Source: a virus
DNA: 20,700 nucleotides
IMG/VR virus record: IMGVR_UViG_3300013372_002424
Coordinates: 1 to 20,700 of that record
Reading direction: 5' to 3' (one strand)
Part shown: positions 1-15,969 of the stretch, one piece after another
Layout: each line of letters starts with the position of its first letter
How positions within the stretch are numbered: position 1 is the first letter of the stretch
Position numbers and translations under genes: made by a program
Notes under the pieces: model-generated
What the model was told of the DNA's origin: nothing
The model's input: only the letters and a program-made list of their open reading frames with translations
The model's database searches: none

Positions 1-771
1 AAAATTCAACGTGACTCTTTCCCAACAATCCACAAATAAAATAGGGAACTTCTTAAATTTCTCATACCCTTGTTGAAATTTTGCAACAGGGATAGTTTTC
101 AAATAGAAGCACTCCCACATTCTATGACAGTCGATCCCGTTTCCCTCTGGATTTATACAGTATATACTATTAGCCAAATTTCGCAAATACTCTTCCTGTT
201 CTACTCTAGGATTCATGACAATATTGTTTTTTGTTGTTATGTTATTAACATCGTTTCTCACATTAAAATTAGTATAAATATCGAAGTTTTTATATACTAA
301 ATTCATCTTGCTGCTATTTTCGTTAACTATTCTATCCATTAAACTCAAATTTCCGTGTTTGTATTGCCTGTTCGCTAATCCTATAGGCAATAGGATTAGC
401 TTGTCGTGAGATATTATCACATTTTGACTATACCACTTTATAACCTTTTCATCATTTAAATATCTCTCGTGCTTATTAGAGAAGGAATTATCCGAATTAT
501 GAGAAATGAAAACATATTTATTCGGCAATAAATCGTATATACATCTGAAAAATCTATCTAGAGTCCAAGTGTTTACAAACAACACCTTAGCGTTTTTAAC
601 ATATTCTGGTAATTCTTTAGTGTTTTCATCATAGTAGAAAGTTTTATATCCATTGTTGCGATTTTGCTCTATTACGAAATCACATTCACTCTCTCCTACA
701 TCTCTGCCATTTGGGATGAGAGATACATCAGCCAAACCCTGAAATTTTTCACCTGTAATATAGTCTATCAT
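1..771 (-). CDS. Exostosin-like glycosyltransferase (partial, 3' end off the left edge)
   Basis: An open frame of 257 codons starts at ATG 771 and runs off the left edge without a stop. Residues 207-229 carry a G-N-G-I-D-C-H-R-x-W-E segment followed by K-T-I-P-V. Exostosin-like (GT47-related) bacterial and phage glycosyltransferases have this kind of conserved C-terminal donor-site motif (known of the family). An L-P-I-G-L-A-N stretch lies at 128-134. No signal peptide or membrane segment is seen, so a cytosolic sugar transferase is expected. The start overlaps the stop of the preceding gene as ATGA, indicating translational coupling, and it is the most distal visible member of the glycosyltransferase operon. 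An 11-bp perfect inverted repeat lies within it. Donor and acceptor sugars cannot be told. The exact GT family is inferred from the motif only. Confidence 0.75.
   Translation of the reverse strand, partial: MIDYITGEKFQGLADVSLIPNGRDVGESECDFVIEQNRNNGYKTFYYDENTKELPEYVKNAKVLFVNTWTLDRFFRCIYDLLPNKYVFISHNSDNSFSNKHERYLNDEKVIKWYSQNVIISHDKLILLPIGLANRQYKHGNLSLMDRIVNENSSKMNLVYKNFDIYTNFNVRNDVNNITTKNNIVMNPRVEQEEYLRNLANSIYCINPEGNGIDCHRMWECFYLKTIPVAKFQQGYEKFKKFPILFVDCWERVTLNF
374..400. repeat. Perfect 11-bp inverted repeat inside a coding region
   Basis: GCTAATCCTAT at 374-384 and ATAGGATTAGC at 390-400 are exact reverse complements separated by 5 nt. In the leftward mRNA they can form an 11-bp hairpin over the codons for L-I-L-L-P-I-G-L-A-N of the partial glycosyltransferase. 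No U-run follows, so it is not a typical intrinsic terminator. Confidence 0.7.
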
Positions 772-1550
772 AATATCATCCATGATCCATGCCAAACATG
801 ACAGCATATAGTTTCTGGTTCTATATATGTCTTATAGTCGGGGTTTTTATTTATATCAGTGTTGGGAAAGGGGTAAAAAAAAGATGCAGGGAAAACAACA
901 ACATTATCCATTTTTTCAATATTATTAAATAATTTTCGTGTTACCAAATATGGGCCAGTAGAGTTAATAACATCCATCCCATCACTATATCCTATAGGAA
1001 CATCCAAATTTAAAACATCTTCAATCAATGGATTTCCAGCAGTTGTTCCTATTAACCCATTTAAGAGGTTAGGAGACGAATCAAATGCGACTCCGCAGAA
1101 GAAGTCCAAATCTAACATCTCGTAAAAATTTTTGACCATTATAAAGTCAGTATCTAAGTAAATCCCTCCATATTGATTCAATATTTCATATCTTAATAAA
1201 TCTGATTTCTGACCCATATTGGGGGTTTTCATATATTCATCTAAATTCTTAAAAGTTTTCAATTTATATACATCTTCTTCCGTCCAAAACATATAAGTCC
1301 AATCAGAAGATAAAAAACTCTTAACGTTTTCACACAACTCCTTTTGTATTTTTGGCATATTTCCTCCTATCCAAATCTGGTGTATTATCTTAGGAATTTT
1401 AGGTGTTGAAACTGGTCTATCTTTAATTATATTATACCTAGACACTAACAAATCCCATTTATTTTGTTCTATTCTGGATTCGTTATAATTAACGGCTCTT
1501 TTCATAGATTCTTCAAACGTAGGCCAACTGCTTTTATTGTATAAGGTCAT
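768..1550 (-). CDS. GT32 family glycosyltransferase with DXD motif
   Basis: A 260-aa protein of the GT32 type (glycosyltransferase sugar-binding region with DXD, OCH1/capsular type). Visible motifs are P-K-I-I-H-Q-I-W at about 53-60, the classical N-terminal signature. Further along is K-S-D-L-L-R-Y-E-I-L with G-G-I-Y-L-D-T-D, whose D-T-D at 133-135 should bind the metal and the nucleotide sugar. I chose ATG 1550 because GGAG lies 9 nt upstream and the overlap with the previous gene is only 17 nt. An in-frame ATG at 1577 would add nine residues. The 3' end overlaps the next gene as ATGA. It is probably a cytosolic retaining transferase using a UDP- or GDP-hexose. The family is confident; the specificity is unknown. 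Confidence 0.88.
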   Translation of the reverse strand: MTLYNKSSWPTFEESMKRAVNYNESRIEQNKWDLLVSRYNIIKDRPVSTPKIPKIIHQIWIGGNMPKIQKELCENVKSFLSSDWTYMFWTEEDVYKLKTFKNLDEYMKTPNMGQKSDLLRYEILNQYGGIYLDTDFIMVKNFYEMLDLDFFCGVAFDSSPNLLNGLIGTTAGNPLIEDVLNLDVPIGYSDGMDVINSTGPYLVTRKLFNNIEKMDNVVVFPASFFYPFPNTDINKNPDYKTYIEPETICCHVWHGSWMIL

Positions 1551-2325
1551 CTTCGTTGTCTCCCAAGTATTTTTCATTCATGTTCAAGTATTCCAGTTCT
1601 AAGTTCATATACAATGAAGCCATTGACACATTAGAATTAGACCTTATAAGAAATTTAGATTTCGATAATAATATAGCATCTGTCACCACATTCAATCCTT
1701 TTATATAACCAGAAACGTTATTATGGTTATTATGAACTCCTATGTTATCTTTACTCCTAATGCAGTTCTTATTATAAATCAGTTTTTCGCCATAAATGGC
1801 TTTAAAGTATTCACATGCATCGTGACAATCTGTTGCCAGATATATATAATCGTATTCATCCTTTATATTATCCACTTCATGTTTGAATTTATCTAAATCT
1901 ACTGGAGAATGTTGATACGTTGTTCCATGTTGACCTATTAGAAATTTATCAGTCCTTCTAACATGTAAACCTAAAACCTTTGAATTGTCAAACATTTGAA
2001 TAGTATCTCTCAATATTTTTTCGGTTTCTTCATTCAATTTAAAATAATTAGAATATATGAAATTCATGGTTTTTCTAAAATTATCTTCTTTAAATTTATA
2101 TAGGTCTATGTAGTCAGATGTAACTTTATCACATTCACAATAATCGAAAGATTGTTTGAAATAATATTCCCAAACGTTTCCCGCTCTTACAGCATCGTAA
2201 TATAAACTTTCTTCCCCCCATTTTATATACCATTCCTCATCATTTTTAATACATTGGGATATTTGGCGAGCGGTGTCATTTACACACGCAAAAAATCCCT
2301 TGTTAGTAGCTTTTATTAATGTCAT
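1534..2325 (-). CDS. Fucosyltransferase-like protein (GT23/NodZ-like)
   Basis: A 263-aa protein. H-V-R-R-T-D-K at 121-127 matches the donor-binding motif of the alpha-1,6/NodZ-type and protein O-fucosyltransferase superfamily, whose arginines contact GDP-fucose (family knowledge). A-T-D at 164-166 and S-K-F-L-I-R-S-N-S-N-V-S near 223-234 match the later motifs of the same group. At 263 aa it is shorter than eukaryotic members and near bacterial NodZ minus extensions. The start overlaps the stop of the upstream gene as ATGA, and no Shine-Dalgarno site is seen, so translation probably depends on coupling. It lies beside a second HxRxxD-type fucosyltransferase-like gene. The fold family is likely; fucose as donor is inferred. 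Confidence 0.75.
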   Translation of the reverse strand: MTLIKATNKGFFACVNDTARQISQCIKNDEEWYIKWGEESLYYDAVRAGNVWEYYFKQSFDYCECDKVTSDYIDLYKFKEDNFRKTMNFIYSNYFKLNEETEKILRDTIQMFDNSKVLGLHVRRTDKFLIGQHGTTYQHSPVDLDKFKHEVDNIKDEYDYIYLATDCHDACEYFKAIYGEKLIYNKNCIRSKDNIGVHNNHNNVSGYIKGLNVVTDAILLSKSKFLIRSNSNVSMASLYMNLELEYLNMNEKYLGDNEDDLIQ

Positions 2326-3116
2326 AATTTTATGTATTTGTGTCTTTCACTCTGTATTAATAAATCTACTCCATTGCTTTCATCTATTCTATTATTACCC
2401 TTTGTGGGTATTGCATTTATGATATTCTCCCCACTGCTGAACAGACTTGCCCAAAAACTAAATGTTCCCACGCTTAATATAAGATTATTATGAGATGCCA
2501 TATAACATATGGTTTCCTTTTCGTCACCTTTAAATATTTCCGCATTATACTTTTTCACTAACGGTAAAATATATTCAGAGTCGTTTGGTGTATCTGTGCA
2601 TATAGTAAGTTTATTGAAATTCAACATTTCGATTGCTTGTTTATAATATTCTATAGGCAGTAAGTCGGGGTGATTAGTCTGTCTTAAATCCCCTAGTCGT
2701 ATATGTATTATCGCATCATCTTTTGGAATATTATAATTTATATAACCATACCATTTCTTAATGTCCTCTGTATGTGGTATGAAGAATCTTTTCTTTTGAA
2801 AGTATCCATCTAAAACAATTTTTCTCGGTGTGGTGTCATTGTATATATCCTCAAGTTCTATGTTGGGATGTATACACTCTGTAGGGGAGTCTCTTGTGGA
2901 TTCTGTGGCACCCCCTATCCTTTGTATGGGTGTTTCGTAAGCCTTATATCCCTCTTGATTGTATTGCAGGTCTATGTTGTTAAGGCAGAATTCTGCGTCT
3001 CCTTTGTTTATGCCGAACAGCTTATATTTCAACTTTTCGGATATTATCCTAGCTGTCATATATTGACATAGTTGATTTCCGTGTCTGCATCCCGATACTG
3101 TTTTGTATATTACCAT
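2322..3116 (-). CDS. Fucosyltransferase-like protein (GT11-like)
   Basis: A 264-aa protein with several alpha-1,2-fucosyltransferase (GT11) features: G-C-R-H-G-N-Q-L near the N terminus (9-16), D-G-Y-F-Q at 103-107, H-I-R-L-G-D at 138-143 (the HxRxxD donor site) and S-V-G-T-F-S-F-W-A-S-L at 215-225. GT11 enzymes are inverting and use GDP-fucose (established for the family). The gene starts one base inside the stop of the preceding gene (TAATG) and ends in an ATGA overlap with the GT23-like gene, so the two fucosyltransferase-like proteins should be made together. The segment at about 60-100 looks diverged. The GT11 call is good; substrates are unknown. Confidence 0.8.
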   Translation of the reverse strand: MVIYKTVSGCRHGNQLCQYMTARIISEKLKYKLFGINKGDAEFCLNNIDLQYNQEGYKAYETPIQRIGGATESTRDSPTECIHPNIELEDIYNDTTPRKIVLDGYFQKKRFFIPHTEDIKKWYGYINYNIPKDDAIIHIRLGDLRQTNHPDLLPIEYYKQAIEMLNFNKLTICTDTPNDSEYILPLVKKYNAEIFKGDEKETICYMASHNNLILSVGTFSFWASLFSSGENIINAIPTKGNNRIDESNGVDLLIQSERHKYIKL

Positions 3117-3853
3117 TATATTAATTTAACATTTTTTCTTATCAGGTCAACCTCTTTTCTTATCTCTGGCATAATTTTATTAGTCCAAACGTGATCGTTC
3201 ACAACACCAGTTCTCAAGTTCTCCATTCTTGTAGATACTTCATCCTGATTACCAAATTCTGAAAAGTGCATATGGCGTATCATAATATCATGTCTGTAAA
3301 TTCTTCTACCTAGAATATCAAAAACTGTATGTATATATGTATCTTCATATATATTCTTTTCGATATCTTCCACATAATGTCCTATTAATTTCGTATAGTC
3401 TTTATGGACAAATGAATTAACCGCCAAGGGTTCAACGTTTTGGTATTTATTTCCCTTGCCTCTCATGCCATCGTTACAGTGAACCATGAAAAAGTTGTCA
3501 CCGTAACTATTTTCTTTGAAGGTGTTTATTATCGTCTCATCCCATCCAAAGGTTTCAAATACCATATCATCCCCAACCATTGCTATTATATCATCTTCAA
3601 CAAAACCATACATATAATTCCACAAGCCTGAAAGCCCATGACTTTTGAAATGACCAGCAGGTATTTTAACAAGTTTAACAAAATTTAAATTGTTTCCTAT
3701 TCTTTCATAAGTTTTAATTTTAGGGTCATCTTCATCTACTCCAAGAACTAGGGTTATATTATTAATATCTTTAGCTGTTATTATAATACTGCTAATAAAT
3801 GTTAAAATTTTATTTATTCTCTCACGAGATGGACACATTAATGCTATTTTCAT
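3116..3853 (-). CDS. GT-A fold glycosyltransferase, GT2-like
   Basis: A 245-aa protein. The N terminus M-K-I-A-L-M-C-P-S-R-E-R is a beta strand followed by the S/T-R-x-R turn common in GT2-like enzymes. I-A-M-V-G-D-D-M at 90-97 supplies the acidic metal-binding pair (D95, D96). E-D-T-Y-I-H-T-V-F-D near 170-179 is in the place of the catalytic-base/acceptor segment. No membrane helices are seen, so it is probably a soluble transferase. It overlaps the previous gene as ATGA and the next as TAATG. The GT-A fold is well supported; the donor sugar cannot be read from sequence. Confidence 0.75.
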   Translation of the reverse strand: MKIALMCPSRERINKILTFISSIIITAKDINNITLVLGVDEDDPKIKTYERIGNNLNFVKLVKIPAGHFKSHGLSGLWNYMYGFVEDDIIAMVGDDMVFETFGWDETIINTFKENSYGDNFFMVHCNDGMRGKGNKYQNVEPLAVNSFVHKDYTKLIGHYVEDIEKNIYEDTYIHTVFDILGRRIYRHDIMIRHMHFSEFGNQDEVSTRMENLRTGVVNDHVWTNKIMPEIRKEVDLIRKNVKLI

Positions 3854-4764
3854 ATTTCTTTTATAAAGTTTGTTGCGTAACCCTCTGGTGAGAAATAATC
3901 AACCCAAAGATTTCTAACGCTCTCTGGAGAGATTTCGCATTGCTCTATCATATCTTTTAAGTGTATTATGTCAACCTCTGGAACTCTTATTATATATTTC
4001 TCCCATTCTATCAAATCGTTAAAAGGTAGAATATCATCACTACTAATTAGAACGGGTATTCTCCCTAAAGATAAAGTTTCATAGAATCTATACGAGAAAT
4101 TCCCTGCTCCTCTCATACATAAGGTGTATCTATTTTCCGTTATATTTTTATAATATTGACGTTTTGTATTAGCGTTAACTCTATCCGAAGAATGGTAAAA
4201 ACCGTTTCTTTTTATGAAATTACAGTTATTGGGAAGAACTTCTTCCATCTTGTTTATGATCCTCTCTCTTGCTCCTTCATAATGACCACAAAACCCTACA
4301 CCTTTATCATATCTGATTTGTCCCAATTCATTAACATTTGAATGATCTGCTACCAGTGCAGGGAAAATTCTTTCGTTTTTCTGAATGGTATTTCTACACG
4401 TAGAAGACCTAAAAAGTATCAAATTTTCTGGAAGTTTAAAAATTTCCATGTTATCGTCATTATAAAACGCAACTACGCGCTTATTGTGCAGTTTAGCTTG
4501 TCCACATATTTCATCAACTCTCCAATCTTTGGAATTGTATTTGAACGGTAAATATACTACATCGCAAGAATCTATCGAAGTTTTAATCAATCCTCTACAA
4601 TTAAAGAATAATTTAGTGAATAATCCATCGTTCCACCAATTCATATTTTTACACACTTCATTATACCACTTATACTCTATAAAAGGAATCAACAGAAAAA
4701 GCTCTGTGAAATTACACAAATCTTTATCTTGGACATATTCAGGTATATGTATTTTAAGTTCCAT
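3850..4764 (-). CDS. Exostosin family (GT47-like) glycosyltransferase
   Basis: A 304-aa protein whose C-terminal half is typical of the exostosin family: L-C-M-R-G-A-G-N-F-S-Y-R-F-Y-E at 215-229, then G-R-I-P-V-L-I. In this family the conserved Arg/Glu residues contact the nucleotide-sugar donor. I selected ATG 4764, not the in-frame ATG 4794. The sequence AAGGTG lies just upstream at Shine-Dalgarno distance, and 4764 falls 10 nt after the stop of the preceding gene, whereas 4794 would overlap it. The 3' end overlaps the next start as ATGA. The neighbouring gene is a paralogue of the same family. Specificity is unknown. Confidence 0.82.
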   Translation of the reverse strand: MELKIHIPEYVQDKDLCNFTELFLLIPFIEYKWYNEVCKNMNWWNDGLFTKLFFNCRGLIKTSIDSCDVVYLPFKYNSKDWRVDEICGQAKLHNKRVVAFYNDDNMEIFKLPENLILFRSSTCRNTIQKNERIFPALVADHSNVNELGQIRYDKGVGFCGHYEGARERIINKMEEVLPNNCNFIKRNGFYHSSDRVNANTKRQYYKNITENRYTLCMRGAGNFSYRFYETLSLGRIPVLISSDDILPFNDLIEWEKYIIRVPEVDIIHLKDMIEQCEISPESVRNLWVDYFSPEGYATNFIKEI

Positions 4765-4774
4765 TGTAAACACC

Positions 4775-5638
4775 TTACTTATCAGTTCTACCAAAATCTG
4801 TCAACATCTCCAATATTTTTCTCGACATGCCTTCCATGTTAAAGTATTTGGAATATACAAATTTCCCAAATTCTAACATTTCATGATATTTATCATCACT
4901 TATATCCATCAACAATTTTTTAATATTATGTAAATTTTTCAGATCAACTAAAACACAGAATTCATTCCAATCTATAACATCTTCAAAAGGCAACCATTTT
5001 TTATCATATATTATAACTGGAACAGAATTTAATTGTATAGCTTCATATATTCTAAAACTTTGACCCCCATATCCACGAGGGCATAAAGTAAATTTAGACC
5101 GTTTGGCACTGTCTATAAAAACATTCAAATTCTTGTCGCTTACAGTAGGTTCCCAAATTTTAACATTGAAATGAAAATCTTTATCATCCCCATAAAATGA
5201 AAACATTTTATTTCTTATCTCATGTGTCATAGAACCCGTAAAAGAGCATAACATCGTCTTGTCTGTATATGTTTTATACTTTTCTGGTATTGGACTACAA
5301 ATTAATGGTATAGGTATCCCATTTTTATTGCCTCCTGCTTCAAAACTTAAAGTGTTTTCTGGTAGTTTTTCACTAACTGCATCATCATGCTGAGAAACCG
5401 TGAAATATTTACCTTTAGGCAATAAATTCAAATAATGCTGTAGTAGGTTTCTATTTACGTTAGTTATATAAACATTAGTCCAAAATACAGGTATCAAAGT
5501 ATATCCAGTTTCGTCAAATAATGGTTTATTTTTTATGTAGAAATCATAAAAATATTCCTCCAAATATAATCCAGTATGATATGGTGGGTATACTGGATAG
5601 TTTGCTGATGGTCTTAAATTTTTAAAATTGATTTCCAT
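4775..5638 (-). CDS. Exostosin family (GT47-like) glycosyltransferase, paralogue of the next gene
   Basis: A 287-aa protein. F-T-L-C-P-R-G-Y-G-G-Q-S-F-R-I-Y-E at 183-199 followed by N-S-V-P-V-I-I is the exostosin signature and aligns by eye with L-C-M-R-G-A-G-N-F-S-Y-R-F-Y-E of the adjacent gene. The two are probably diverged duplicates or were acquired together. ATG 5638 is chosen; an upstream in-frame TTG at 5656 would add six residues but increases the overlap. The gene overlaps the 3' end of the previous gene by 17 nt. No signal peptide or membrane segment is evident. Confidence 0.82.
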   Translation of the reverse strand: MEINFKNLRPSANYPVYPPYHTGLYLEEYFYDFYIKNKPLFDETGYTLIPVFWTNVYITNVNRNLLQHYLNLLPKGKYFTVSQHDDAVSEKLPENTLSFEAGGNKNGIPIPLICSPIPEKYKTYTDKTMLCSFTGSMTHEIRNKMFSFYGDDKDFHFNVKIWEPTVSDKNLNVFIDSAKRSKFTLCPRGYGGQSFRIYEAIQLNSVPVIIYDKKWLPFEDVIDWNEFCVLVDLKNLHNIKKLLMDISDDKYHEMLEFGKFVYSKYFNMEGMSRKILEMLTDFGRTDK

Positions 5639-6332
5639 TCTTCTTATTTTTGACAATATTTAAAAGTTTAATCTTGTTTTCGATACCTGCTGTCCAGTTC
5701 GCATGATGTATTATCATGTTATTAGGTATTTCAAAGTCTTCTGCATCTTCCGTCCAAGACCCTTTTAGGCTGGTTCCAGCTTTATTAAAGGTTGCTGCAA
5801 TGTGTCCATATGTCCAATATTCATCTGGTAAAAATTTCCATTTAACATTTATGGAATCGTTAGCACCATATTCTCTCAGTATATAATTCGCCAACACTTG
5901 TTCTTGACTGAAGTTCTCAGATTCTAAGTTGCCTAACAAAGTTTTAAAAAAACTTCTAGTTTTAGAATTGTTCCTAACAGCAAAAAATCCAGTATTTACC
6001 CCTCCAATTACATCGTTCTGCCATAGTATGTCTACATTTTTAATTCTTTCTACTATATCATCATAAAAATCACCAAAAAATTGAATATCTGGATCGATAA
6101 ACATGAATATTTCATCATCATTGCACTTTTTTATATTCTCGTAAAAACATTCAGCTTTATCTTTCATCGTATCTTTCCATCCAAGAGTTTCAAAAGTTGC
6201 CGTTTTACAATGTTGTTGCCTGTGTAGTATGGTCAATTCTATTTCACTTCTAAACGGAAACGTAGGTAGAAAATAATCGGTTAAGAATTTTTTATGGGAA
6301 TCTGTGAATAAAGTGTATGCTTTAATTTTCAT
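5622..6332 (-). CDS. GT77-like nucleotide-diphospho-sugar transferase
   Basis: A 236-aa GT-A fold protein. F-M-F-I-D-P-D-I-Q-F-F-G-D at 76-88 holds a D-P-D metal site typical of the nucleotide-diphospho-sugar transferase (GT77-like) group. G-V-N-T-G-F-F-A-V-R at 111-120 is the usual following strand-turn (G-x-N-x-G) of these enzymes. S-Q-E-Q-V-L at about 141-146 is like the Q-x-x-[FL] segment that follows. It starts one base after the stop of the methyltransferase gene and overlaps the next gene by 17 nt. The family call is by motif; the substrate is unknown. Confidence 0.72.
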   Translation of the reverse strand: MKIKAYTLFTDSHKKFLTDYFLPTFPFRSEIELTILHRQQHCKTATFETLGWKDTMKDKAECFYENIKKCNDDEIFMFIDPDIQFFGDFYDDIVERIKNVDILWQNDVIGGVNTGFFAVRNNSKTRSFFKTLLGNLESENFSQEQVLANYILREYGANDSINVKWKFLPDEYWTYGHIAATFNKAGTSLKGSWTEDAEDFEIPNNMIIHHANWTAGIENKIKLLNIVKNKKNGNQF

Positions 6333-6333
6333 A

Positions 6334-7020
6334 TTATCGTTTTTTAAATATAAAGGCTATAGGAGAGAATCTGGCGTGTTCGATAACAATTTTATCGATA
6401 TTATCATTTAGATATTGTATTTCCTGTGTTGTCATAACATTACTTTCTATAACATTAGTTTCACAATATTTTTCTAACATGTCCAATGTCAATGTTTCGT
6501 TTTCGTATCTTTTAAATATTTGACCACTACATAAGGAAGGTTCATTATTATATGATTTATCAGGATGAGATGTGTGCAAGTCTTCTATTACGAAGATTCC
6601 GCCGGGTTTAACATTTTTAAATAACATTCCTAGGCTTATTTGTTGCTGATGCATCCAGTGTCCTCCATCTTCTATTATTATATCCATTTGCAAATCGTTA
6701 AACATCTTACCTAGTTGCTCTCTATTGCTTTGATCTGCTACATACGTCCTAATCCTTTCCTCTTTGTTTAAATACGAATGGTCGTTTATATCAATTCCAT
6801 ATATTCCAGAATTGTGAAAATAATCTCTCCACATTAATAATGATGCTCCACCATAGGGTCTATTTATTTTATCTGGATGTTCTAGAATCCCTATTTCGCA
6901 TATATTGAGTTTCAAATCTCTTAGAGGTTCGAAATATTTTTCATAAAATGTGACGTAATTATGATCTGCTTCTCGTTTATCTGTTGCATATAAGTTTGCT
7001 AGCTCTGATAATGTTTTCAT
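6334..7020 (-). CDS. SAM-dependent methyltransferase, probable sugar O-methyltransferase
   Basis: A 228-aa class I methyltransferase. It starts with L-A-x-L-Y-A-T-D-K, then H-x-Y-x-x-x-Y-E-K-Y-F. SAM-binding motif I is I-C-E-I-G-I at 40-45, Y-G-I-D-I-N-D at 74-80 gives the acidic ribose-binding residue, I-I-I-E-D-G-G-H is at about 114-121 and P-G-G-I-F-V-I-E-D-L-H at 139-149. This arrangement resembles MycE/demethylmacrocin-type O-methyltransferases that modify sugars (family knowledge). It is the only non-glycosyltransferase gene in the cluster, so methylation of the assembled glycan is the natural inference. The gap to the upstream gene is 37 nt, the largest inside the island, and holds an AATATATAA stretch before the ATG. 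Confidence 0.8.
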   Translation of the reverse strand: MKTLSELANLYATDKREADHNYVTFYEKYFEPLRDLKLNICEIGILEHPDKINRPYGGASLLMWRDYFHNSGIYGIDINDHSYLNKEERIRTYVADQSNREQLGKMFNDLQMDIIIEDGGHWMHQQQISLGMLFKNVKPGGIFVIEDLHTSHPDKSYNNEPSLCSGQIFKRYENETLTLDMLEKYCETNVIESNVMTTQEIQYLNDNIDKIVIEHARFSPIAFIFKKR

Positions 7021-7057
7021 GTTATATATTATTGTATTTTCCGAAAATATCTACGAT

Positions 7058-7786
7058 TTAAATGGATTTTATGAGAACACCATCATATTTAGGTGTTCTC
7101 TCTTTGTATAAACTCTCTATCAATAATCCATGTTTATATAAATCTAAATTATTATGAGTGTCTGACGGATTTAAATCAATATCTCCATCGTTTTCTCCGT
7201 ATTTTAATGTCCTCCAAGACATTCCTTCATAATGTATATAATAATCATCTTGTAAGTTTACATCCCCTATTTTAAGACCACATTTTCTAACATCCTCGAA
7301 AAAAGTGGCACCTACATCATAAATTCTCCCTGTTTTATCTGACTGTCTAACTACATCAAAAAACTTTATTCCGTGTTCTTTTATGTGCTTAATGTTTATA
7401 AAGCAATGCCAAGGATGAACCCTATAATGGAGTTTTTTTCCTCCTCTGTCACCACAAACAGTCCCAAGAAGAGTTGCACCACATTTTTTAAACTCGTCAA
7501 ACACCTGTTCATGATTTTTCAGAAAGATTACATCAGTATCTACTAGCAATGCATAATCAGTTTTACAATTCTCTATAAGAATATCTACAGATGGACTATG
7601 TAATCCTCCAACATTTCTGATATATGGGACTGAGTGCTCATCAAGTAATTTTACTGTATCATCGTTCGTGGAATTTTCGCATATTAAGACTTTCGTTTTT
7701 TCATGTAAACTAAAAAATGATTTCAACATAGATATAGTAACATCTGGTGTATTATACGAGCATGATAGTAGTGTTATATTATCCAT
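7058..7786 (-). CDS. GT2 family glycosyltransferase
   Basis: A 242-aa GT2-type enzyme. The N terminus I-T-L-L-S-C-S-Y-N-T is the first strand of the nucleotide-binding half. C-E-N-S-T-N-D-D-T at 36-44 matches the [DE]-N-x-S-x-D-x-T turn of GT2 proteins. Y-A-L-L-V-D-T-D-V at 78-86 supplies the D-x-D at 83-85. H-Y-E-G-M-S-W-R at 185-192 fits the acceptor-side histidine segment. The start overlaps the preceding gene by 8 nt. It is cytosolic by lack of membrane segments. The GT2 call is strong; specificity is unknown. Confidence 0.85.
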   Translation of the reverse strand: MDNITLLSCSYNTPDVTISMLKSFFSLHEKTKVLICENSTNDDTVKLLDEHSVPYIRNVGGLHSPSVDILIENCKTDYALLVDTDVIFLKNHEQVFDEFKKCGATLLGTVCGDRGGKKLHYRVHPWHCFINIKHIKEHGIKFFDVVRQSDKTGRIYDVGATFFEDVRKCGLKIGDVNLQDDYYIHYEGMSWRTLKYGENDGDIDLNPSDTHNNLDLYKHGLLIESLYKERTPKYDGVLIKSI

Positions 7787-8624
7787 TTTTTATATCTTTA
7801 AGAGTTTTAAGAAAATCGTCTTGACTTACCTGTGGTGTTTGTGCAGGATATGTCCCGTTTTTGATCCTGTATTTATCTGCGTTTTTTTGCACGTTTTCCA
7901 TCCATGCGTCTGTATTTTTAGCAGTGACACTATTCTTTATAGCATCTTTCTGTGGTGATATATACTCGCCACTATTGTATATGTCCGCAAACCACCAGAA
8001 AGGAGGATGGAACCCTTTTTTAATTGCTTGATATGTATGGTCAACATGTTCCCACGCATTGTAAAACTGTTCATCAATATACCCAATTGATTCTATCACC
8101 TTTCTATTGTAATATGAAAACATTCCGCATATGTGGGGATAGAAAGCCATTTTAATATTTTCATATTCTACTATTATTCTAGGATTAGGTTCTCCGTCAT
8201 TGTCTAATTCATGTCTATTATGTAAATCGAATTGGACGGATTGCTTTTTGTTAAATGGTGTTCCCAATCCATAATTTAAATGTAAAATTCCAGTCTCTTT
8301 AGATGCTTCAATATATTTTTGGAAAACAATCATGTTTTTTATTGTTATATCATCTTCCAGAATGAAAATATGTTCACATCCTGCATCCATAAGATATTTA
8401 ATTGCTCTATTTTTAGATTTACCGATTCCTAAATTTTTTTCGTTTTGTATATATTTCGTAGCAAGATTTAATTTTTCAAGTTTTTCAAAATCTTCATGTG
8501 GTTCTCCATCGTTTACAACTACTAATTCAGAATAATATGCAGGATTAAATAAAGACCCTAAACATTTAGCCAAATATTCGTGTCTGTTACAAGTTATTAC
8601 GCCTATTCCTATTTTATCGTTCAT
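7779..8624 (-). CDS. GT2 family glycosyltransferase
   Basis: A 281-aa GT2 enzyme. I-G-I-G-V-I-T-C-N-R at 5-14 is followed by L-V-V-V-N-D-G at 34-40 and N-L-G-I-G-K-S-K-N at 64-72, a standard GT2 order. I-L-E-D-D at 88-92 is the metal-binding acidic motif. Later, G-Y-I-D-E-Q-F followed by W-E-H-V-D-H-T is the G-x-F-D-E...E-D-x-D equivalent, with the catalytic-base region slightly changed (E-H-V-D). A tail of about 60 residues follows the catalytic domain. The gene begins directly after the stop of the upstream gene (TAAATG). Confidence 0.87.
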   Translation of the reverse strand: MNDKIGIGVITCNRHEYLAKCLGSLFNPAYYSELVVVNDGEPHEDFEKLEKLNLATKYIQNEKNLGIGKSKNRAIKYLMDAGCEHIFILEDDITIKNMIVFQKYIEASKETGILHLNYGLGTPFNKKQSVQFDLHNRHELDNDGEPNPRIIVEYENIKMAFYPHICGMFSYYNRKVIESIGYIDEQFYNAWEHVDHTYQAIKKGFHPPFWWFADIYNSGEYISPQKDAIKNSVTAKNTDAWMENVQKNADKYRIKNGTYPAQTPQVSQDDFLKTLKDIKNG

Positions 8625-9347
8625 TTATTTACCAAGTTTAATTTTTTTCAAATCTTCTTTAAGATGTTCCAAATTTCCAGCACTCTGCTCCCAAGGCAAA
8701 TCTTCGTATTTATATAGATACCACTGACTAGAATATTCATCCATTTCTGGTTGTTCTAATACTTTGTTATCGCTTTCAACATCGAAGAACCAAGGCGTTT
8801 GTTTATATTCTATCCTTGGCATTTTTCCTTTGTTGGATAATCTATTAACGTAATCAATCATACACGAATAATCTGTCATTCGAACATCAAAATAACCAAC
8901 AGTCTCAATCGCATCTTTCCTAATGACTTCTATTGTTATTCTTTGTCCTAAGCCTGTCCCTATACTAATGTTTTGTCCACCGTAATCAACCTTTAAGGAT
9001 ATTTTTAATGCGCCAGTGAAATAAGGAATGTTAGTGTCTTCAACGGCTTTAATATATTTACCTATCGTATCCTTAACCCTTTCTAAGCTTTGTTGCGATA
9101 ATCTAATATCCGATTTCCACAATACGCAATATTCATTTTCTGAATTGAAAAAAATTCTCAATGCAGCGTTTTTCAATTGTGTGGTATTATCTTCTTTGGT
9201 ATATTTAACAACGGAAGAATCTAATGAGATGTTTCCCTCCTCGTCAAAATCCGTGTTTAAAGTGGATTCAAACCTGTCGAATATTACAAATTTAACCTTA
9301 GTTTGAATCTGTTTGGCTGTTTCTGTAGATATCAATGCATTTTTCAT
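8625..9347 (-). CDS. Divergent GT2/GT-A-like protein overlapping the end of gene 47
   Basis: A 240-aa protein. No clear D-x-D is visible. The central part nevertheless follows the GT2 plan: A-A-L-R-I-F-F-N-S-E-N-E-Y-C-V-L-W-K-S-D-I at about 61-81 takes the place of the segment ending in D-x-D. I-E-V-I-R-K-D-A-I-E-T-V-G-Y-F-D at 139-154 matches the R-x-x-[FLI]-x-x-[VI]-G-x-F-D step before the acceptor site. It may be an inactive or strongly diverged transferase. The start at ATG 9347 lies 50 nt inside gene 47, and AAGGA 8 nt upstream supports it. It is the first gene of the glycosyltransferase run after gene 47. Confidence is moderate for the fold and low for activity. Confidence 0.55.
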   Translation of the reverse strand: MKNALISTETAKQIQTKVKFVIFDRFESTLNTDFDEEGNISLDSSVVKYTKEDNTTQLKNAALRIFFNSENEYCVLWKSDIRLSQQSLERVKDTIGKYIKAVEDTNIPYFTGALKISLKVDYGGQNISIGTGLGQRITIEVIRKDAIETVGYFDVRMTDYSCMIDYVNRLSNKGKMPRIEYKQTPWFFDVESDNKVLEQPEMDEYSSQWYLYKYEDLPWEQSAGNLEHLKEDLKKIKLGK

Positions 9348-10362
9348 ATATTTCGTCCTTGTCTAATTCTGTATTTAATAGCTTTATAAATTCTTTCAAT
9401 GATGAATCTATATCAATATATCCACCGTTTTCCATTTGTTTTGTTGGTGTCAAGTCATCCATCTCTAACACAAAGTTCGTTTTCAATTGAATGGGATTCA
9501 TATTGTTCAATTTCAACAATACCATATTGAGTTTTTCATCTGGTATTTTTTCATCTACCGTCAATTCTATGATGTTATCCTTTATCAGTTCTTTCCATTC
9601 TGATTTACCTTCTAACATCTCTCCTAAACTTATTTTCAAATGTCTAGGAGATATTTTGTTAACAATGAACTCGTATTTCATTGTTTCTAGGTCTAATACT
9701 GTAATCCCTTTTTCCTGCCCTGCTTCTCCCCAATTTTGCTCATAAGGGGAACCTAGATATAAAATCTCTTTCTTGTCTTCGTATATTCTATGTTCTCTGT
9801 TGTGAAAATGTCCGCTAATAATAGTCTTACCTTTCTCTAAAAATTTGGATGAATCTATACCGTGATCGCATATTTTTACAGAGTTTATCTTAAAGTTACC
9901 TATTTCAAAATGTCCAAATATTATATCGCTATCAGGAATATCCTTAGTTTCTACACCCCAAGGACAAAATGATATATTTTTGTTGAATTGTTTAACTGAT
10001 ACTAAAGTGTCCAGAACTTTTACATTTGGCCATTCACTAAACGGTTTCAAGGAGTGTATAGTAGAATTGTTCTTGAAGTAACAACAATGATTTCCTGTTG
10101 TCATCACAACATTAAAATCCTTAAATTTTTTGAGGAAAGTCGTTCCACAATCTAAGGTGGTTTGATTTACTTCTTCTCTATAATGGAAGAAATCACCACA
10201 AAAAACTATGTCTGTCACTCCTCTTTTAGTGAATTCTGATATGGCCCAATCAGCAAAATCTAAACTTATCTTGTGCCATTTATCATTGTTTCCATGAACT
10301 CCTATATGGCAGTCTGAAAACAATCCTATTTTTCTACCTTCTAAAATGTTATTCATCTTCAT
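9298..10362 (-). CDS. 47: gp47-like recombination endonuclease subunit (SbcD/Mre11-like phosphoesterase)
   Basis: A 354-aa calcineurin-like phosphoesterase with the Mre11/SbcD motif order: S-D-C-H-I-G at 16-21 (motif I, D-x-H), G-D-F-F-H-Y-R at 56-62 (motif II), T-G-N-H at 89-92 (motif III), F-G-H-F-E at 149-153, and S-G-H-F-H at 183-187 (motif V, G-H-x-H). T4 gp47 is 339 aa and works with the ATPase gp46 to resect DNA ends for recombination-dependent replication. I placed the start at ATG 10362. An in-frame ATG at 10356 is equally possible, while ATGs further upstream would only extend into gene 55. It overlaps gene 55 by 14 nt, implying coupling. Gene 46 is not in the window. Confidence 0.92.
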   Translation of the reverse strand: MKMNNILEGRKIGLFSDCHIGVHGNNDKWHKISLDFADWAISEFTKRGVTDIVFCGDFFHYREEVNQTTLDCGTTFLKKFKDFNVVMTTGNHCCYFKNNSTIHSLKPFSEWPNVKVLDTLVSVKQFNKNISFCPWGVETKDIPDSDIIFGHFEIGNFKINSVKICDHGIDSSKFLEKGKTIISGHFHNREHRIYEDKKEILYLGSPYEQNWGEAGQEKGITVLDLETMKYEFIVNKISPRHLKISLGEMLEGKSEWKELIKDNIIELTVDEKIPDEKLNMVLLKLNNMNPIQLKTNFVLEMDDLTPTKQMENGGYIDIDSSLKEFIKLLNTELDKDEIYEKCIDIYRNSQTDSN

Positions 10363-10915
10363 TCGACGATTCACAATCAGCGTCATACCAAGAGTTTTCG
10401 TTTTCGTCATCATCATTGCCTTTTTTCTGGTATGGTATTTGGCCCGATTCAGTTAATAACCCATAAACACTTGCTTGATATCTTTTTATTGTATCATGAT
10501 CTTTCTTTTCCTTTTTAATTCTGTTTTGAAATGCTCTAAATGCAACTTTAGTAAAATAAGAAAACGGGTTATATCCTGAACCTACTAGGAATCTTCTACG
10601 TTTTAAAGCTGTAACCATTTTTATGACAGCATCTCCAATCATCTCTTCTTTATATGAATAATTTATAAAATTTTGTGCGAACCCCAATCTCGTAGCTATC
10701 TTCTGAATCATATCCGCTAATTCACTAGAGAATACATCTGTTTCATAGAATTGTTTAATCATTTCTTCCATGTAAATAGGATCGACATAATTAGTTTTCA
10801 GTTGCTCTTTAGTTCTTCTAACTCTCTTTTTAGGCATCTTTTGTTTTAGTTCATCGTCGTGATCTAATCCAGATTCTTCGAAGAAGTCATCGTCTTTTAT
10901 TTTAGTTTTTTTCAT
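10349..10915 (-). CDS. 55: gp55-like late-transcription sigma factor
   Basis: A 188-aa protein, close to T4 gp55 (185 aa). The central K-E-E-M-I-G-D-A-V-I-K-M and G-Y-N-P-F-S-Y-F-T-K-V-A-F-R-A-F-x-x-R-I-K-K-E-K-K segments (about 89-137) match sigma region 2 as kept in gp55, which recognises the late TATAAATA box. The N terminus (about 1-45) is an acidic then basic extension with K-K-R-V-R-R. The C terminus is acidic and shows no obvious hydrophobic sliding-clamp-binding end like that of T4 gp55. Upstream are TTGGTC - 16 bp - TATAAC and a TAAATA box only 1 nt from the ATG. The late-like boxes across this window are its likely targets. Confidence 0.9.
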   Translation of the reverse strand: MKKTKIKDDDFFEESGLDHDDELKQKMPKKRVRRTKEQLKTNYVDPIYMEEMIKQFYETDVFSSELADMIQKIATRLGFAQNFINYSYKEEMIGDAVIKMVTALKRRRFLVGSGYNPFSYFTKVAFRAFQNRIKKEKKDHDTIKRYQASVYGLLTESGQIPYQKKGNDDDENENSWYDADCESSNEDE

Positions 10916-10965: not shown

Positions 10966-11130
10966 CAACCGCACTTGTGTTGTTGTTATCCTCGTTGTTG
11001 TTATAAAGTTATAACATCCAGTGGTTCCAATTTCATGTATGGTTTCTGCCCCTCCACCGCACCCACATTCATGTAATTCTTGACAAAGTGTTGAATGTGT
11101 CATATAGTAAGGTTTTTCTATATCTTTCAT
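10957..11130 (-). CDS. Small Cys-rich protein, possibly frameshifted
   Basis: A 57-aa ORF with its own sigma70-like promoter about 15 nt upstream. Residues 16-26 read C-Q-E-L-H-E-C-G-C-G-G, a likely metal-binding cluster, with another Cys at 39. The last 15 residues are low complexity (I-T-T-T-R-I-T-T-T). In an adjacent frame the DNA that follows reads H-K-C-G-C-W-S-R-H-E-G, a second Cys/His cluster like the first. This suggests that the true protein may be two-knuckled and interrupted by a frameshift in an ACA/ACAA-repeat stretch. It lies between uvsW and gene 55. I do not recognise a family. Confidence 0.5.
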   Translation of the reverse strand: MKDIEKPYYMTHSTLCQELHECGCGGGAETIHEIGTTGCYNFITTTRITTTQVRLLV

Positions 11131-11144
11131 ATATCGAGTATTGT

Positions 11145-11172
11145 ATTATACACTAGTTTAAAAATAAATCAA
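11145..11172 (-). promoter_or_regulatory. Sigma70-like promoter for the small Cys-rich gene
   Basis: On the leftward strand TTGATT - 16 bp - TATAAT. The -35 overlaps the stop of uvsW. The predicted start site is about 8 nt before ATG 11130. It may also serve genes 55 and 47 downstream. Confidence 0.6.
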
Positions 11173-12629
11173 ATTTCACTTATTGGGGTTTCTTTGACTG
11201 GTATTTTCTCTTTTATGTATATCTTTAATCGTTCAGTATAATGTTCCCATCCATACCTTAACATATCAGCTATATCAAAAATATATGCCATCTCCTTAGA
11301 TTGGTGCAGTCTCAAGCTTCTACCAATAGATTGTATTAATTTTATTTTAGCTTTTCCGATTGCAGCAAAAATAATATAATGCAAGTTTTTGATATTAATA
11401 CCTGTGCTGAATATGTTGGATATTGCCACACACACAATATCATTTTCTGATTCCATCAACTTTCTTATGTTCTCACGATCTTCAATTTCGATTTTACCGT
11501 GTATGAAATAAACTCTTTTATTAGTTCCCTTCGATAGTAAATCATATAACAACTCACCGTGAACTATTCTATCTACCATAATCAAAACGTTTTTTTCTAC
11601 CTTGTTCACTAATTTTACAATAGTATTGTTTCTGAATTCATTATGGTGGAGAAAATCTATTTCTTCTTCATATGCTTCAGTAGGATTTAAATGATTAGGT
11701 TTCTTAAATTTTCTGCTAGGATCATAATGAACTTTAATAGTGGAAATAACAACCTTGGAAATCTGTTTATTGTTTCTCAATTCTTCGGATGTTTTGGTGT
11801 ATATGACAGACCCGAATATTCCGTTGATGCACCACTTGTCCAGTTTAGATTCTGGTAAAGTCCCTGTCAATCCATAACGATATTTAGCAGGTATTTTAGA
11901 TACTATCTTATTTATCTCGTTGCCGTGGCGGAACTTATGACACTCATCGCAAATCAATACATCAATCCTACTCAACCAAGAAATGTCCTGAGTTTCAGAT
12001 TGAAGTATTTGAGTGTTCGTTATTACAATTTTAGTATTAGGGGATGCTCCTCCTTCCCAACAACTTATATCTTTCTCGCTTATTCCGTATTGTAAACATT
12101 CATCGTATGTTTGTTTCAACAGTTGTATGTTTGGAACTATCACTAATGTTATTACATCCTTTATTTGATTTCTAATTGATTCTATTAGAGTTGACAACAC
12201 TAAAGTTTTACCAGCAGAAGTTGGTAAGATTATTACTCCATATCCTTTCTGCAAAGCAACAAGCACAGATTCCTTTTGGTAATCCCTTAAAGATATCCCC
12301 AATTTATCCAAGTTGTTTAATTTTATTATTTCACCCTTTAATGATGGAGGATTAACTATGTTTTTAAACTCCTCTGATAGTTCAATATTTATAGGTGTAT
12401 CTAAAGTGTTTAGATAGTCTATCAGTTCATTATACATTCGTGGCTCAAACCTGCCTTGTGGTGTTATTACATAATTCCTAGAAGGTATAGAATATCCTAC
12501 ACTGTATTTCTTTTTATATTTCTGATTTTTATCTTCAACTGAAAAATACTCACGAATATTCGAGAAATAATCCGATTCGATCATTCCTTTTCGTCTTCCA
12601 GTATCATAATCAATTTTAACATTAATCAT
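11169..12629 (-). CDS. uvsW: UvsW-like superfamily 2 DNA helicase
   Basis: A 486-aa SF2 helicase; T4 UvsW is slightly longer. Q-motif region L-R-D-Y-Q-K-E is at 114-120, Walker A P-T-S-A-G-K-T at 136-142, motif II D-E-C-H at 228-231, motif III T-G-T at 255-257, motif V S-T-G-I-N-I at 408-413 and motif VI Q-S-I-G-R-S-L-R at 433-440. UvsW unwinds branched DNA, including R-loops and recombination intermediates, and so switches T4 from origin-dependent to recombination-dependent replication (established). It starts 1 nt after the stop of the UvsY-like gene, with GGAG 10 nt upstream. Adjacency of uvsY and uvsW is as in T4. Confidence 0.93.
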   Translation of the reverse strand: MINVKIDYDTGRRKGMIESDYFSNIREYFSVEDKNQKYKKKYSVGYSIPSRNYVITPQGRFEPRMYNELIDYLNTLDTPINIELSEEFKNIVNPPSLKGEIIKLNNLDKLGISLRDYQKESVLVALQKGYGVIILPTSAGKTLVLSTLIESIRNQIKDVITLVIVPNIQLLKQTYDECLQYGISEKDISCWEGGASPNTKIVITNTQILQSETQDISWLSRIDVLICDECHKFRHGNEINKIVSKIPAKYRYGLTGTLPESKLDKWCINGIFGSVIYTKTSEELRNNKQISKVVISTIKVHYDPSRKFKKPNHLNPTEAYEEEIDFLHHNEFRNNTIVKLVNKVEKNVLIMVDRIVHGELLYDLLSKGTNKRVYFIHGKIEIEDRENIRKLMESENDIVCVAISNIFSTGINIKNLHYIIFAAIGKAKIKLIQSIGRSLRLHQSKEMAYIFDIADMLRYGWEHYTERLKIYIKEKIPVKETPISEI

Positions 12630-12630
12630 A

Positions 12631-13059
12631 TTATGTCGTCTCCATTTTAACTATTTCTATCAAATTTTTTAAATCGTAACTTGTCGATCTAAAATTAGCT
12701 TCTATTTTAGAAAGATAATCAATTAGAAGTTCTTCTTCTATTACCTTTTCGTCTATCTTTTTAACTATTTCATTTTCTTCAGCAGCATCTTTCATGGTTT
12801 TTTGATGCGTTCCTATTGGCAAATCTTTTTTCAATTTGTCTGTTATTATCTTAATAGCCTTTTTTCTTTGTTTCTGAAGGTTTATTATTTCGCTTTTATG
12901 CAACATCAATCGACCAACCCAATAATGTCTTTGGTTGGGTAAATCCATTTGAATGTCTTTCATGTTAAATTCATCTATCTTAACAGCTTTACCTATTTTT
13001 TCGTGATATTCCTCTAAACGCTCTTTCAAGGTTTTTTCTTTTTGATTAGAATCTTCCAT
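12631..13059 (-). CDS. uvsY: UvsY-like recombination mediator
   Basis: A 142-aa protein; T4 UvsY is 137 aa. The helix with H-Y-W-V-G-R-L-M-L-H-K-S-E and then L-Q-K-Q-R-K-K-A-I-K, at about 45-70, corresponds to the UvsY segment around K-W-L-N-K-H-S and its basic helix. A Lys-rich middle is followed by a helical C terminus with L-I-D-Y-L-S-K-I-E. UvsY helps load UvsX recombinase onto gp32-coated ssDNA (known). Identity rests on length, helical basic layout and its position directly before uvsW. It is the first gene of the leftward block, with a TATAAT 12 nt before the ATG. Confidence 0.75.
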   Translation of the reverse strand: MEDSNQKEKTLKERLEEYHEKIGKAVKIDEFNMKDIQMDLPNQRHYWVGRLMLHKSEIINLQKQRKKAIKIITDKLKKDLPIGTHQKTMKDAAEENEIVKKIDEKVIEEELLIDYLSKIEANFRSTSYDLKNLIEIVKMETT

Positions 13060-13071
13060 AAGTATATAAGA

Positions 13072-13099
13072 ATTATACCACAGTTTATAATAAAATCCA
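13072..13099 (-). promoter_or_regulatory. Leftward promoter of the uvsY-uvsW-55-47 block
   Basis: TGGATT - 16 bp - TATAAT on the leftward strand, with a predicted leader of about 6 nt to ATG 13059. It shares the 56-bp divergent region with the rightward TAAATA box. The -35 is only a 3/6 match. Confidence 0.5.
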
Positions 13100-13100
13100 C

Positions 13101-13106
13101 TAAATA
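13101..13106 (+). promoter_or_regulatory. Late-like TAAATA box before the 87-aa gene
   Basis: TAAATA sits 9 nt before ATG 13116. T4 late promoters are TATAAATA, with transcription starting about 5 nt after the box, which would give a leader of about 4 nt. No Shine-Dalgarno site lies between. Confidence 0.45.
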
Positions 13107-13115
13107 TTAGTAATT

Positions 13116-13379
13116 ATGATTAAAAATTTTACACAACTAGTTAATGATGTGATAGAAGAGAATATTACATCAGGTGTCGCTTTCGGAACACCTTCTATAA
13201 TAGGTGGGGTGCCAGATCAATTTTCAGGGGATACATATGCAAAAGGGGATAGTAGGAAACCATTTGGTATGGGAAAAGTAATCAAAAGAAAGTTCCCTGA
13301 AAATATTATAATTGGACAAAAAGGGAAAAAGAAGTCAAAAAAGAAGTCAAAAAAGAACAAAAAACGTAAAAGTCCATAA
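13116..13379 (+). CDS. Small phage protein with Lys-rich tail and capsid-targeting-like N terminus
   Basis: An 87-aa protein. The N terminus M-I-K-N-F-T-Q-L-V-N-D-V-I-E-E is a short amphipathic helix ending in I-x-E (13-15). This resembles the T4 capsid-targeting sequence that gp21 protease removes after [L/I]-x-E. The middle is G/P/S-rich (T-P-S-I-I-G-G-V-P and Y-A-K-G-D-S-R-K-P-F-G). The tail holds K-K-K-S repeats encoded by a 12-nt tandem repeat and is strongly basic, suited to binding DNA. It is the first gene of the rightward block, behind a late-like box. The family is not recognised; an internal or DNA-associated virion protein is an inference. Confidence 0.7.
   Translation: MIKNFTQLVNDVIEENITSGVAFGTPSIIGGVPDQFSGDTYAKGDSRKPFGMGKVIKRKFPENIIIGQKGKKKSKKKSKKNKKRKSP
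13326..13361 (+). repeat. 12-nt tandem repeat encoding K-K-K-S
   Basis: AAAAAGAAGTCA occurs twice in perfect tandem (13326-13349), followed by a third degenerate copy. It is in frame and builds the basic C-terminal tail of the 87-aa protein. Copy number may vary by slippage. Confidence 0.8.
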
Positions 13380-13403
13380 TCTGTGATCTTCAAACTCCCC
13401 GAA

Positions 13404-13416
13404 GTTCTTAAAGAAC
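13404..13416. repeat. Short palindrome GTTCTT-A-AAGAAC
   Basis: A perfect 6-bp dyad with a 1-nt centre lies 24 nt after the stop of the 87-aa gene, in the 133-bp intergenic stretch. It could be an operator half-site pair. It lacks a U-run, so it is not a clear terminator. Confidence 0.35.
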
Positions 13417-13461
13417 ATTTAACGTCGATTTTTGATTTGTCAAGCGACTCAAACGAAAAAA

Positions 13462-13493
13462 GTTGAAAAAAGTTAAAATAGTTGTAAGTAGTT
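13462..13493 (+). repeat. GTT elements at 10/9/10-bp spacing in an A-rich tract
   Basis: GTT recurs at 13462, 13472, 13481 and 13491, separated by A/T-rich spacers, directly before the late-like box of the GIY-YIG-like gene. Near-helical spacing suggests a phased, possibly curved or protein-bound, element. The rest of the 13380-13512 gap holds no ORF that I can support. Confidence 0.4.
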
Positions 13494-13498
13494 AAATA
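13492..13498 (+). promoter_or_regulatory. Late-like TTAAATA box before the GIY-YIG-like gene
   Basis: TTAAATA followed by TA, 14 nt before ATG 13513. No matching -35 hexamer is present, as expected for a gp55-type late promoter. Confidence 0.5.
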
Positions 13499-13512
13499 TA
13501 AACAAATTACAT

Positions 13513-13956: not shown

Positions 13957-13968
13957 ACCTGTTATAAT
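13941..13968 (+). promoter_or_regulatory. Sigma70-like promoter before the tandem zinc-finger gene
   Basis: TGGACA - 16 bp - TATAAT, 5/6 and 6/6 matches to consensus. It lies inside and just after the 3' end of the GIY-YIG-like gene. The predicted leader to ATG 13987 is about 11 nt. A late-like box follows within a few bases, so the gene may be read both early and late. Confidence 0.6.
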
Positions 13969-13970
13969 TG

Positions 13971-15143: not shown

Positions 15144-15146
15144 ATA
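15140..15146 (+). promoter_or_regulatory. Late-like ATAAATA box before the proline/threonine-rich gene
   Basis: GATAAATA is a 7/8 match to the T4 late box TATAAATA. It lies 7 nt before ATG 15154 and shares its TAA with the stop of the previous gene. The predicted leader is about 2 nt. Confidence 0.55.
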
Positions 15147-15153
15147 GTGTTAT

Positions 15154-15414: not shown

Positions 15415-15417
15415 TAG

Positions 15418-15445
15418 TTGAAATAGGAGTTATACGTGTTATAAT
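15418..15445 (+). promoter_or_regulatory. Sigma70-like promoter before the 98-aa gene
   Basis: TTGAAA - 16 bp - TATAAT, 5/6 and 6/6 matches. The -10 box abuts the ATG at 15446, so transcription should start near 15452, just before the in-frame ATG at 15455. Confidence 0.65.
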
Positions 15446-15742: not shown

Positions 15743-15743
15743 C

Positions 15744-15938: not shown

Positions 15939-15956
15939 AATTCTCAGAGATAACGT

Positions 15957-15963: not shown

Positions 15964-15969
15964 TAAAAT

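Follow-up and report, generated by a model that had tools for sequence, protein, structure and literature searches.

Glycosyltransferase genes between genes 47 and 46

We analyzed a 20,700-base stretch of viral DNA (the window), which is the entire IMG/VR record IMGVR_UViG_3300013372_002424, with a focus on the island of glycan-building genes at positions 1-9347. In transcription order on the minus strand, a UvsY-like gene, UvsW, gp55 and gp47 are followed directly by 12 open reading frames (ORFs; g1-g12), with no overlap above 50 bp and no gap above 37 bp, that continue to the left end of the record, where the island is truncated. A first-pass annotation made from the letters of the window had described a twelve-gene island of eleven glycosyltransferase (GT) or GT-like genes from at least five families and one methyltransferase, and all 12 same-strand ORFs were confirmed (Table 1). 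Seven of the 12 score above the Pfam curated cut-off as glycosyltransferases (g2 and g3, GT2; g5, Nucleotid_trans; g6 and g7, GT47; g9, GT11; g11, GT32), in agreement with the predicted number of families, and three more (g8, g10 and g12) were assigned by PHROG, profile or structure homology, bringing the supported total to ten beside the methyltransferase g4. Acidic motifs are retained in the GT-A members of the island. The eleventh predicted gene, g1, fits the label 'GT-like' by its sequence relationships while its activity is doubtful: we found no support for an ordinary active transferase, as the acidic motif is missing, neither g1 nor its relatives match a glycosyltransferase family in Pfam, and the structural model is only weakly GT-A-like.

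The number twelve, by comparison, is an effect of the contig end. IMGVR_UViG_3300012012_001295 (G001), a 59,455-base contig with 99.9% identity to the window across 20.4 kb, extends beyond the window's left end with 15 further genes, directly followed by gene 46, another glycosyltransferase and gene 43. Its 47-to-46 interval thus holds 27 genes in 20.9 kb on a single strand, mostly separated by overlaps or gaps of a few bases (176 bases at the largest), and these genes are presumably co-transcribed. The T4-type core genes found in syntenic order in the window and G001 (uvsW, 55, 47, 46, 43), as identified by profiles and gene order, place the virus among the T4-like phages. G+C content is alike in island and core (~0.30-0.34), and a recent foreign island was therefore rejected on composition. 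Matches to the T4 late-promoter consensus TATAAATA (14 sites in three G001 pieces versus ~26 expected from base composition) were uninformative for timing.

The leftward extension also contains nucleotide-sugar genes, which the first-pass annotation had proposed to look for and which are missing from the window only because the contig ends. We identified an RmlC above the NCBIfam cut-off (E=3e-62), a short-chain dehydrogenase/reductase (SDR) nearest to dTDP-glucose 4,6-dehydratase but below that family's cut-off, a split transketolase and a UDP-galactopyranose mutase (PF03275, E=2e-56), together with methyltransferases and GT8-, GT11- and GT25-type proteins, some of them below cut-off. A branched sugar could possibly be made by way of the split transketolase, because a split-gene transketolase has been proposed to put a two-carbon branch on a keto sugar in miharamycin biosynthesis (PMC12247030). 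A bacterial donor of the sugar-pathway genes was sought through g18, for which no relative was found among bacterial genomes. Some T4-like Aeromonas phages also encode homologues of the UDP-galactopyranose mutase (L014:10448-11443), phage 25 (34% identity) among them.

The 47-46 slot in relatives

To place the island in context, we used gp47 and gp46 in profile-guided scans, which gathered about 150 relatives. Three classes of 47-46 distance are seen: 0-33 bases (empty), ~0.8 kb (one gene) and 3.5-24 kb (filled). Relatives without the cluster keep 47 and 46 adjacent, and the synteny whose absence would have refuted the first-pass annotation is thus present. A tree of 69 dereplicated gp47 proteins, rooted at the midpoint only, includes 34 empty, 11 one-gene and 24 filled loci, four of the 24 having been scored as filled by the absence of gene 46 in ~10 kb behind gene 47. 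On this tree the filled state requires 2 changes and the one-gene state 1, compared with 20.0 and 10.4 when the labels are shuffled; the filled slots thus belong to what is essentially a single deep lineage, with L092 on a long branch as its only empty exception. The filled state persists where gp47 is only ~40% identical. None of the isolates T4, S-H34, S-CAM7, Atu_ph07, Mendera and Erwinia phage SNUABM_47 has a filled slot, their genes 47 and 46 overlapping or lying at most ~0.5 kb apart.

In the one-gene clade (L044, L048, L060, L066, L068, L080, L099), genes 47 and 46 are separated by a single g2-like GT2 gene with mostly NDS or NDN at the place of the EDD motif. This gene may be an intermediate stage, or else a derivative of g2 that has no catalytic activity. 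Separately, a GT4-type glycosyltransferase (PF13524) lies behind gene 46 in all 65 of the 65 loci tested, whatever the state of the slot (L014:13900-15159, equal to G001:55899-57158). Sequenced isolates yield weak partial matches only, and the gene possibly represents an older transferase that belongs to the core of the entire supergroup.

A conserved first gene and exchangeable blocks

In 23 of the 24 filled slots, a homologue of g2 lies within 2.2 kb of gene 47, and we refer to this GT2 gene as the anchor. Its structural model (predicted local distance difference test, pLDDT, 90) has the GT2 enzymes TarS, K4CP and RmlT as nearest solved folds. The remainder of the slot is replaced as a unit. 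When the window is compared with L002, every 200 bases are 92-99% identical as far as the stop codon of g3, beyond which the two are unrelated. Because the differences within the shared part fall mostly at third codon positions (13 of 19 in g1, 26 of 42 in g2 and 21 of 31 in g3), we take the coding of these three genes to be real. L002 is a short contig that on its own could be an assembly chimera; two further comparisons are independent of it. L027 and L031 have 95.7% identical gp47 proteins and 92% identical DNA through gene 47, yet the likeness ends ~60 bases into the first slot gene, and their slots have the anchor alone in common (44% identity). Conversely, L130 and L031 are only 66.7% identical in gp47 and ~70% in flanking DNA, yet share nine of ten slot genes, with slot DNA mostly 80-86% identical except in the first genes. 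As closely similar backbones differ in contents and divergent backbones agree, these alignments indicate that slot contents move as blocks between backbones; homologous recombination would be a plausible mechanism. This conserved slot with exchangeable contents is our main result, and it is one that a single window could not have revealed.

The recognized contents are of the glycan type. Among 140 slot proteins of other contigs, the recognized families are mainly GT2, GT47/RXYLT1, GT7, GT25, GT4, Fringe, sugar epimerases, dehydratases and methyltransferases, and nearly all slot ORFs (487 of 489) lie on the gene 47 strand.

Table 1. Island genes and conserved flanking genes of the window, with the evidence for each assignment
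Feature	Position	Strand	Evidence and remarks
UvsY-like gene	12631..13059	-	Conserved flank; phrog_231 E=6e-6; retained in relatives
UvsW-type helicase	11169..12629	-	Conserved flank; phrog_16 E=2e-76
gp55 late sigma factor	10349..10915	-	Conserved flank; phrog_234 E=8e-21
gp47	9298..10416	-	One border of the slot; phrog_100 E=4e-65
g1, divergent GT2 relative without acidic motif	8625..9347	-	hhalign to g2 family E=2e-24; weak GT-A-like fold matches of model
g2, GT2, anchor gene	7779..8624	-	PF00535 E=4e-10; EDD motif kept across family
g3, GT2	7058..7786	-	PF00535 E=2e-6, above cut-off; sequence shared with L002 stops at its stop codon
g4, methyltransferase	6334..7020	-	phrog_21658 E=2e-24
g5, nucleotide-diphospho-sugar transferase	5622..6332	-	PF03407 E=4e-12, above cut-off; DPD motif
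g6, GT47 exostosin-type transferase	4775..5656	-	PF03016 E=2e-22; exostosin-1 E=2e-9
g7, GT47 exostosin-type transferase	3850..4794	-	PF03016 E=3e-14
g8, phage glycosyltransferase	3116..3853	-	phrog_14945 E=3e-24; EDD motif
g9, GT11 (fucosyltransferase-type)	2322..3116	-	PF01531 E=8e-8, above cut-off; phrog_2644 E=9e-13
g10, FUT8/NodZ-like (fucosyltransferase-type)	1534..2325	-	Profile of four relatives against FUT8 structures E=1e-8, also reaching NodZ structures; NodZ family E=2e-4, below cut-off
g11, GT32	768..1577	-	PF04488 E=6e-13, above cut-off; DTD motif
g12, A075L-type GT47	1..807	-	Truncated by contig end; complete (296 aa) in L001:19610-20500

Homology of g12 and other island genes

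The gene at the truncated end, g12, is homologous to three solved structures (E=3e-25 for the single sequence, 6e-59 for a profile of nine members), one of them named AO75L, which we take to be A075L of PBCV-1, the structure table naming no organism. It adjoins the region of the fucosyltransferase-type genes g9 and g10. Members of the g12 family are frequent in viral contigs and nearly absent from sequenced phage isolates; on a tree the family is separated from bacterial relatives with two changes, the bacterial members found being distant kin. Chlorovirus A075L has been assigned to the addition of xylose onto fucose in the capsid glycan, and most chlorovirus transferases are soluble cytoplasmic enzymes with early expression (PMC9614988, PMC7826918).

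For g6, we observed a 42% identical relative in an uncultured 735-kb phage (LR756501.1:332494-333333), which extends the occurrence of these transferase families to very large phages. A 43% identical relative is also present in S-SKS1, within a cluster bordered by hli, ferredoxin and baseplate genes; S-SKS1 was rejected as an isolate with the same locus, since that cluster is not the one between 47 and 46.

Possible function and alternative explanations

We consider it somewhat probable that the locus, in its fixed slot between genes 47 and 46 of an uncultured T4-like lineage, is a serotype-like site of glycan assembly, encoding a soluble oligosaccharide pathway whose product most likely decorates the virion. 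Soluble enzymes made in the host cytoplasm would assemble a multi-sugar glycan: the anchor g2 probably sets the first or core sugar, the remaining transferases would extend and branch it, and methyltransferases would cap it. The phage RmlC, SDR, split transketolase and UDP-galactopyranose mutase would supply unusual sugars (6-deoxy sugars, possibly a branched one, and galactofuranose). With a virion surface protein as the most likely acceptor, the locus would thereby set a phage 'serotype', and recombination in the shared flanks and the anchor would swap the variable part as a block. We propose more tentatively, with slightly less confidence than doubt, that this is a clade-wide virion-serotype locus in which a conserved initiating transferase and exchangeable blocks build complete phage-specific virion glycans, some of their sugars phage-made, and that it is switched by recombination as capsule or O-antigen type is in bacteria.

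The absence of membrane and flippase genes had been the reason given in the first-pass annotation for favoring a soluble pathway decorating a virion protein, DNA or an intracellular precursor, and it extends well beyond the window. Neither the flippase family PF01943 nor the lipid-linked initiating transferase family PF02397 was found in any of 12 relative records, which favors a soluble pathway, and among 305 non-redundant slot proteins just 11 show as much as one weak hydrophobic window. The virion as the target is suggested by two homologies. One is that of g12 to an enzyme assigned to the chlorovirus capsid glycan, by which the chlorovirus-type self-glycosylation suggested by the annotation has gained support. 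The other is that of g2 to transferases of mycobacteriophage cluster F, with 27-29% identity across 89-94% of the query; the phages of this cluster are reported to carry capsid glycans (PMC11256854, citing Freeman 2023).

Several points weigh against this overall explanation. The virion acceptor is inferred, neither the g12 nor the g2 homology proves it, and glycosyltransferase family does not fix the acceptor; an identity of 27-29% between g2 and the mycobacteriophage enzymes is modest. Solubility is likewise a property of the transferases of the lipopolysaccharide (LPS) core, which makes a host-envelope target compatible with the lack of membrane genes. The records are fragments, so that export genes may lie elsewhere, and one of the exchange cases involves the short contig L002. 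The main competing explanation, which we regard as unlikely though well worth weighing, is that the same soluble enzymes modify host LPS, lipooligosaccharide or lipid-linked glycans on the cytoplasmic side, with host transporters exporting the product; the altered cell surface would then keep competing phages from superinfecting. Soluble transferases would be enough to extend the LPS core, LPS and O-antigen loci typically carry RmlC, GT25 and GT11-type genes, and variable contents also fit phage-phage competition; such a host-envelope role against superinfection has been proposed and favored for the glycosyltransferases of pelagimyophages (PMC7029224). Against this explanation stand the lack of flippase and initiating transferase families in the 12 records, the near absence of membrane proteins from the slots, and the position of g12 in a virus-rich family with the capsid enzyme A075L, distant from the bacterial members found; a single lytic cycle would also leave little time for surface remodeling.

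Two other explanations appear far less probable. That the enzymes glycosylate phage DNA in the manner of T4, building an oligosaccharide on hydroxymethylcytosine against restriction, is suggested by the T4 alpha-glucosyltransferase gene, which sits between genes 55 and 47 near the slot, and by a weak match of g2 to a T-even DNA glycosyltransferase PHROG (phrog_842, E=8e-5). However, PF00303 (gp42 or thymidylate synthase type) was found in none of the 12 records, which are fragments but include ones of 227 kb and 218 kb, whereas the T4 control matched the family three times, once in the gene-42 region. T4-style DNA glucosylation is therefore disfavored on gene content, and with it the DNA target that the annotation had allowed. 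No island protein matches the T4 AGT or BGT family, and some twenty transferases far exceed the needs of any known DNA modification; we judge this explanation very unlikely. Least probable of all is that the islands are for the most part filler without function, gathered by chance at a permissive site and serving to maintain genome length for headful packaging. The slot does range from 3.5 to 24 kb, and for cyanophage LPS clusters the choice between function and 'stuffer DNA' was left open (PMC3037559). Filler is difficult to reconcile with intact, tightly packed frames almost entirely on one strand, with the kept acidic motifs, third-position bias and recognized glycan-type content, or with persistence of the filled state across the deep divergence in gp47.

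Comparison with known systems

The locus is of the same broad kind as the LPS gene clusters of T4-like cyanophages and the variable regions of pelagimyophages, and lies outside the positional definitions of both. The cyanophage clusters of P-SSM2, S-SSM7 and S-SM2 likewise combine many glycosyltransferase and sugar-nucleotide genes, as does the 27-gene island of G001. Theirs are situated near hli03 or phoH and tRNAs (PMC3037559), and block exchange in a fixed slot is not described in the sections on them, whereas the present locus lies between 47 and 46 in a window without any tRNA. The pelagimyophage host recognition cluster, also a hypervariable and glycosyltransferase-rich region of a T4-like phage, is located between VrlC and gp14 with tail fibers (PMC7029224). 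In contrast, the slot is in the replication region, flanked by 55-47 and 46-43, and no tail fiber is among the families reported for the window and slot proteins.

With PBCV-1 self-glycosylation, the locus shares many mostly soluble virus-encoded transferases besides the g12 homology, and the chlorovirus glycan's conserved core with variable additions resembles the anchor with its variable genes. It differs in that chloroviruses infect eukaryotic algae, while here the genes form one contiguous block with exchangeable contents and virion attachment is putative. Mycobacteriophages of cluster F similarly encode GT2-type transferases (~27% identical to g2); they are an unrelated phage type with few transferases and no variable multi-gene locus described. 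Bacterial O-antigen and capsule loci are alike in their conserved borders, similar enzyme families and variable center replaced blockwise, as seen here for L027/L031, L130/L031 and the window with L002. They differ from the slot, where phage core genes form the borders and no flippase, polymerase or initiating lipid transferase was found. We found no report of transferases between 46 and 47 in the open-access literature. Within that literature, the fixed slot, its retention over deep divergence, the conserved anchor with a one-gene sister state and the block exchange were not found described.

Other features of the window and its relatives

Outside the island, the window contains a SegE-type GIY-YIG homing endonuclease (13513-13956; PF19835, E=2e-29) near the divide of two opposing gene blocks. 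Differing ORFs at window positions 13116-13379, 15154-15414 and 18990-19412, and at L015:76-576, 8934-9749 and 13993-14802, begin with a similar N-terminal peptide (M-x-F-x-x-L-Y...I/L-x-E) that resembles the T4 capsid-targeting sequences cleaved by gp21, and a gp21-type protease (PF03420) is present in 5 of 12 relatives. To judge from this peptide, their products may be packaged in the head and injected. By eye, L015 also encodes a 982-aa SNF2-like helicase, an ArdC-like protein and two SprT-like metalloproteases (11021-13969, 14807-16087 and 8934-10212), most with a similar N-terminal peptide; these putative proteins are possibly injected anti-defense proteins.

Among the core genes of relatives, we noted a gp55 frame of 533 aa and gp46 and gp43 each spread over two ORFs (G003, joined from L016-L018, at 36550-38151, 24396-26755 and 19656-22906), as well as a gp43 frame of 1328 aa (G005, ORF starting at 49089). 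These odd frames suggest inteins, introns or split genes.

Significance

Large glycan clusters of T4-like phages have been on record since at least 2010, their role left unassigned and even filler considered in the discussion of them in PMC3037559. A fixed slot, deep retention, a conserved first gene and blockwise replacement argue strongly for a selected function, and the acceptor of g2 offers a testable handle on it. The slots are also a source of many uncharacterized transferases, including some whose families are almost missing from sequenced phage isolates. Should virion decoration be borne out, serotype switching and chlorovirus-like self-glycosylation would exist among tailed phages, which would bear on their adsorption, recognition and classification. 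The locus suggests that these phages may make their own surface sugars and vary them in a way that recalls capsule-type switching in bacteria.

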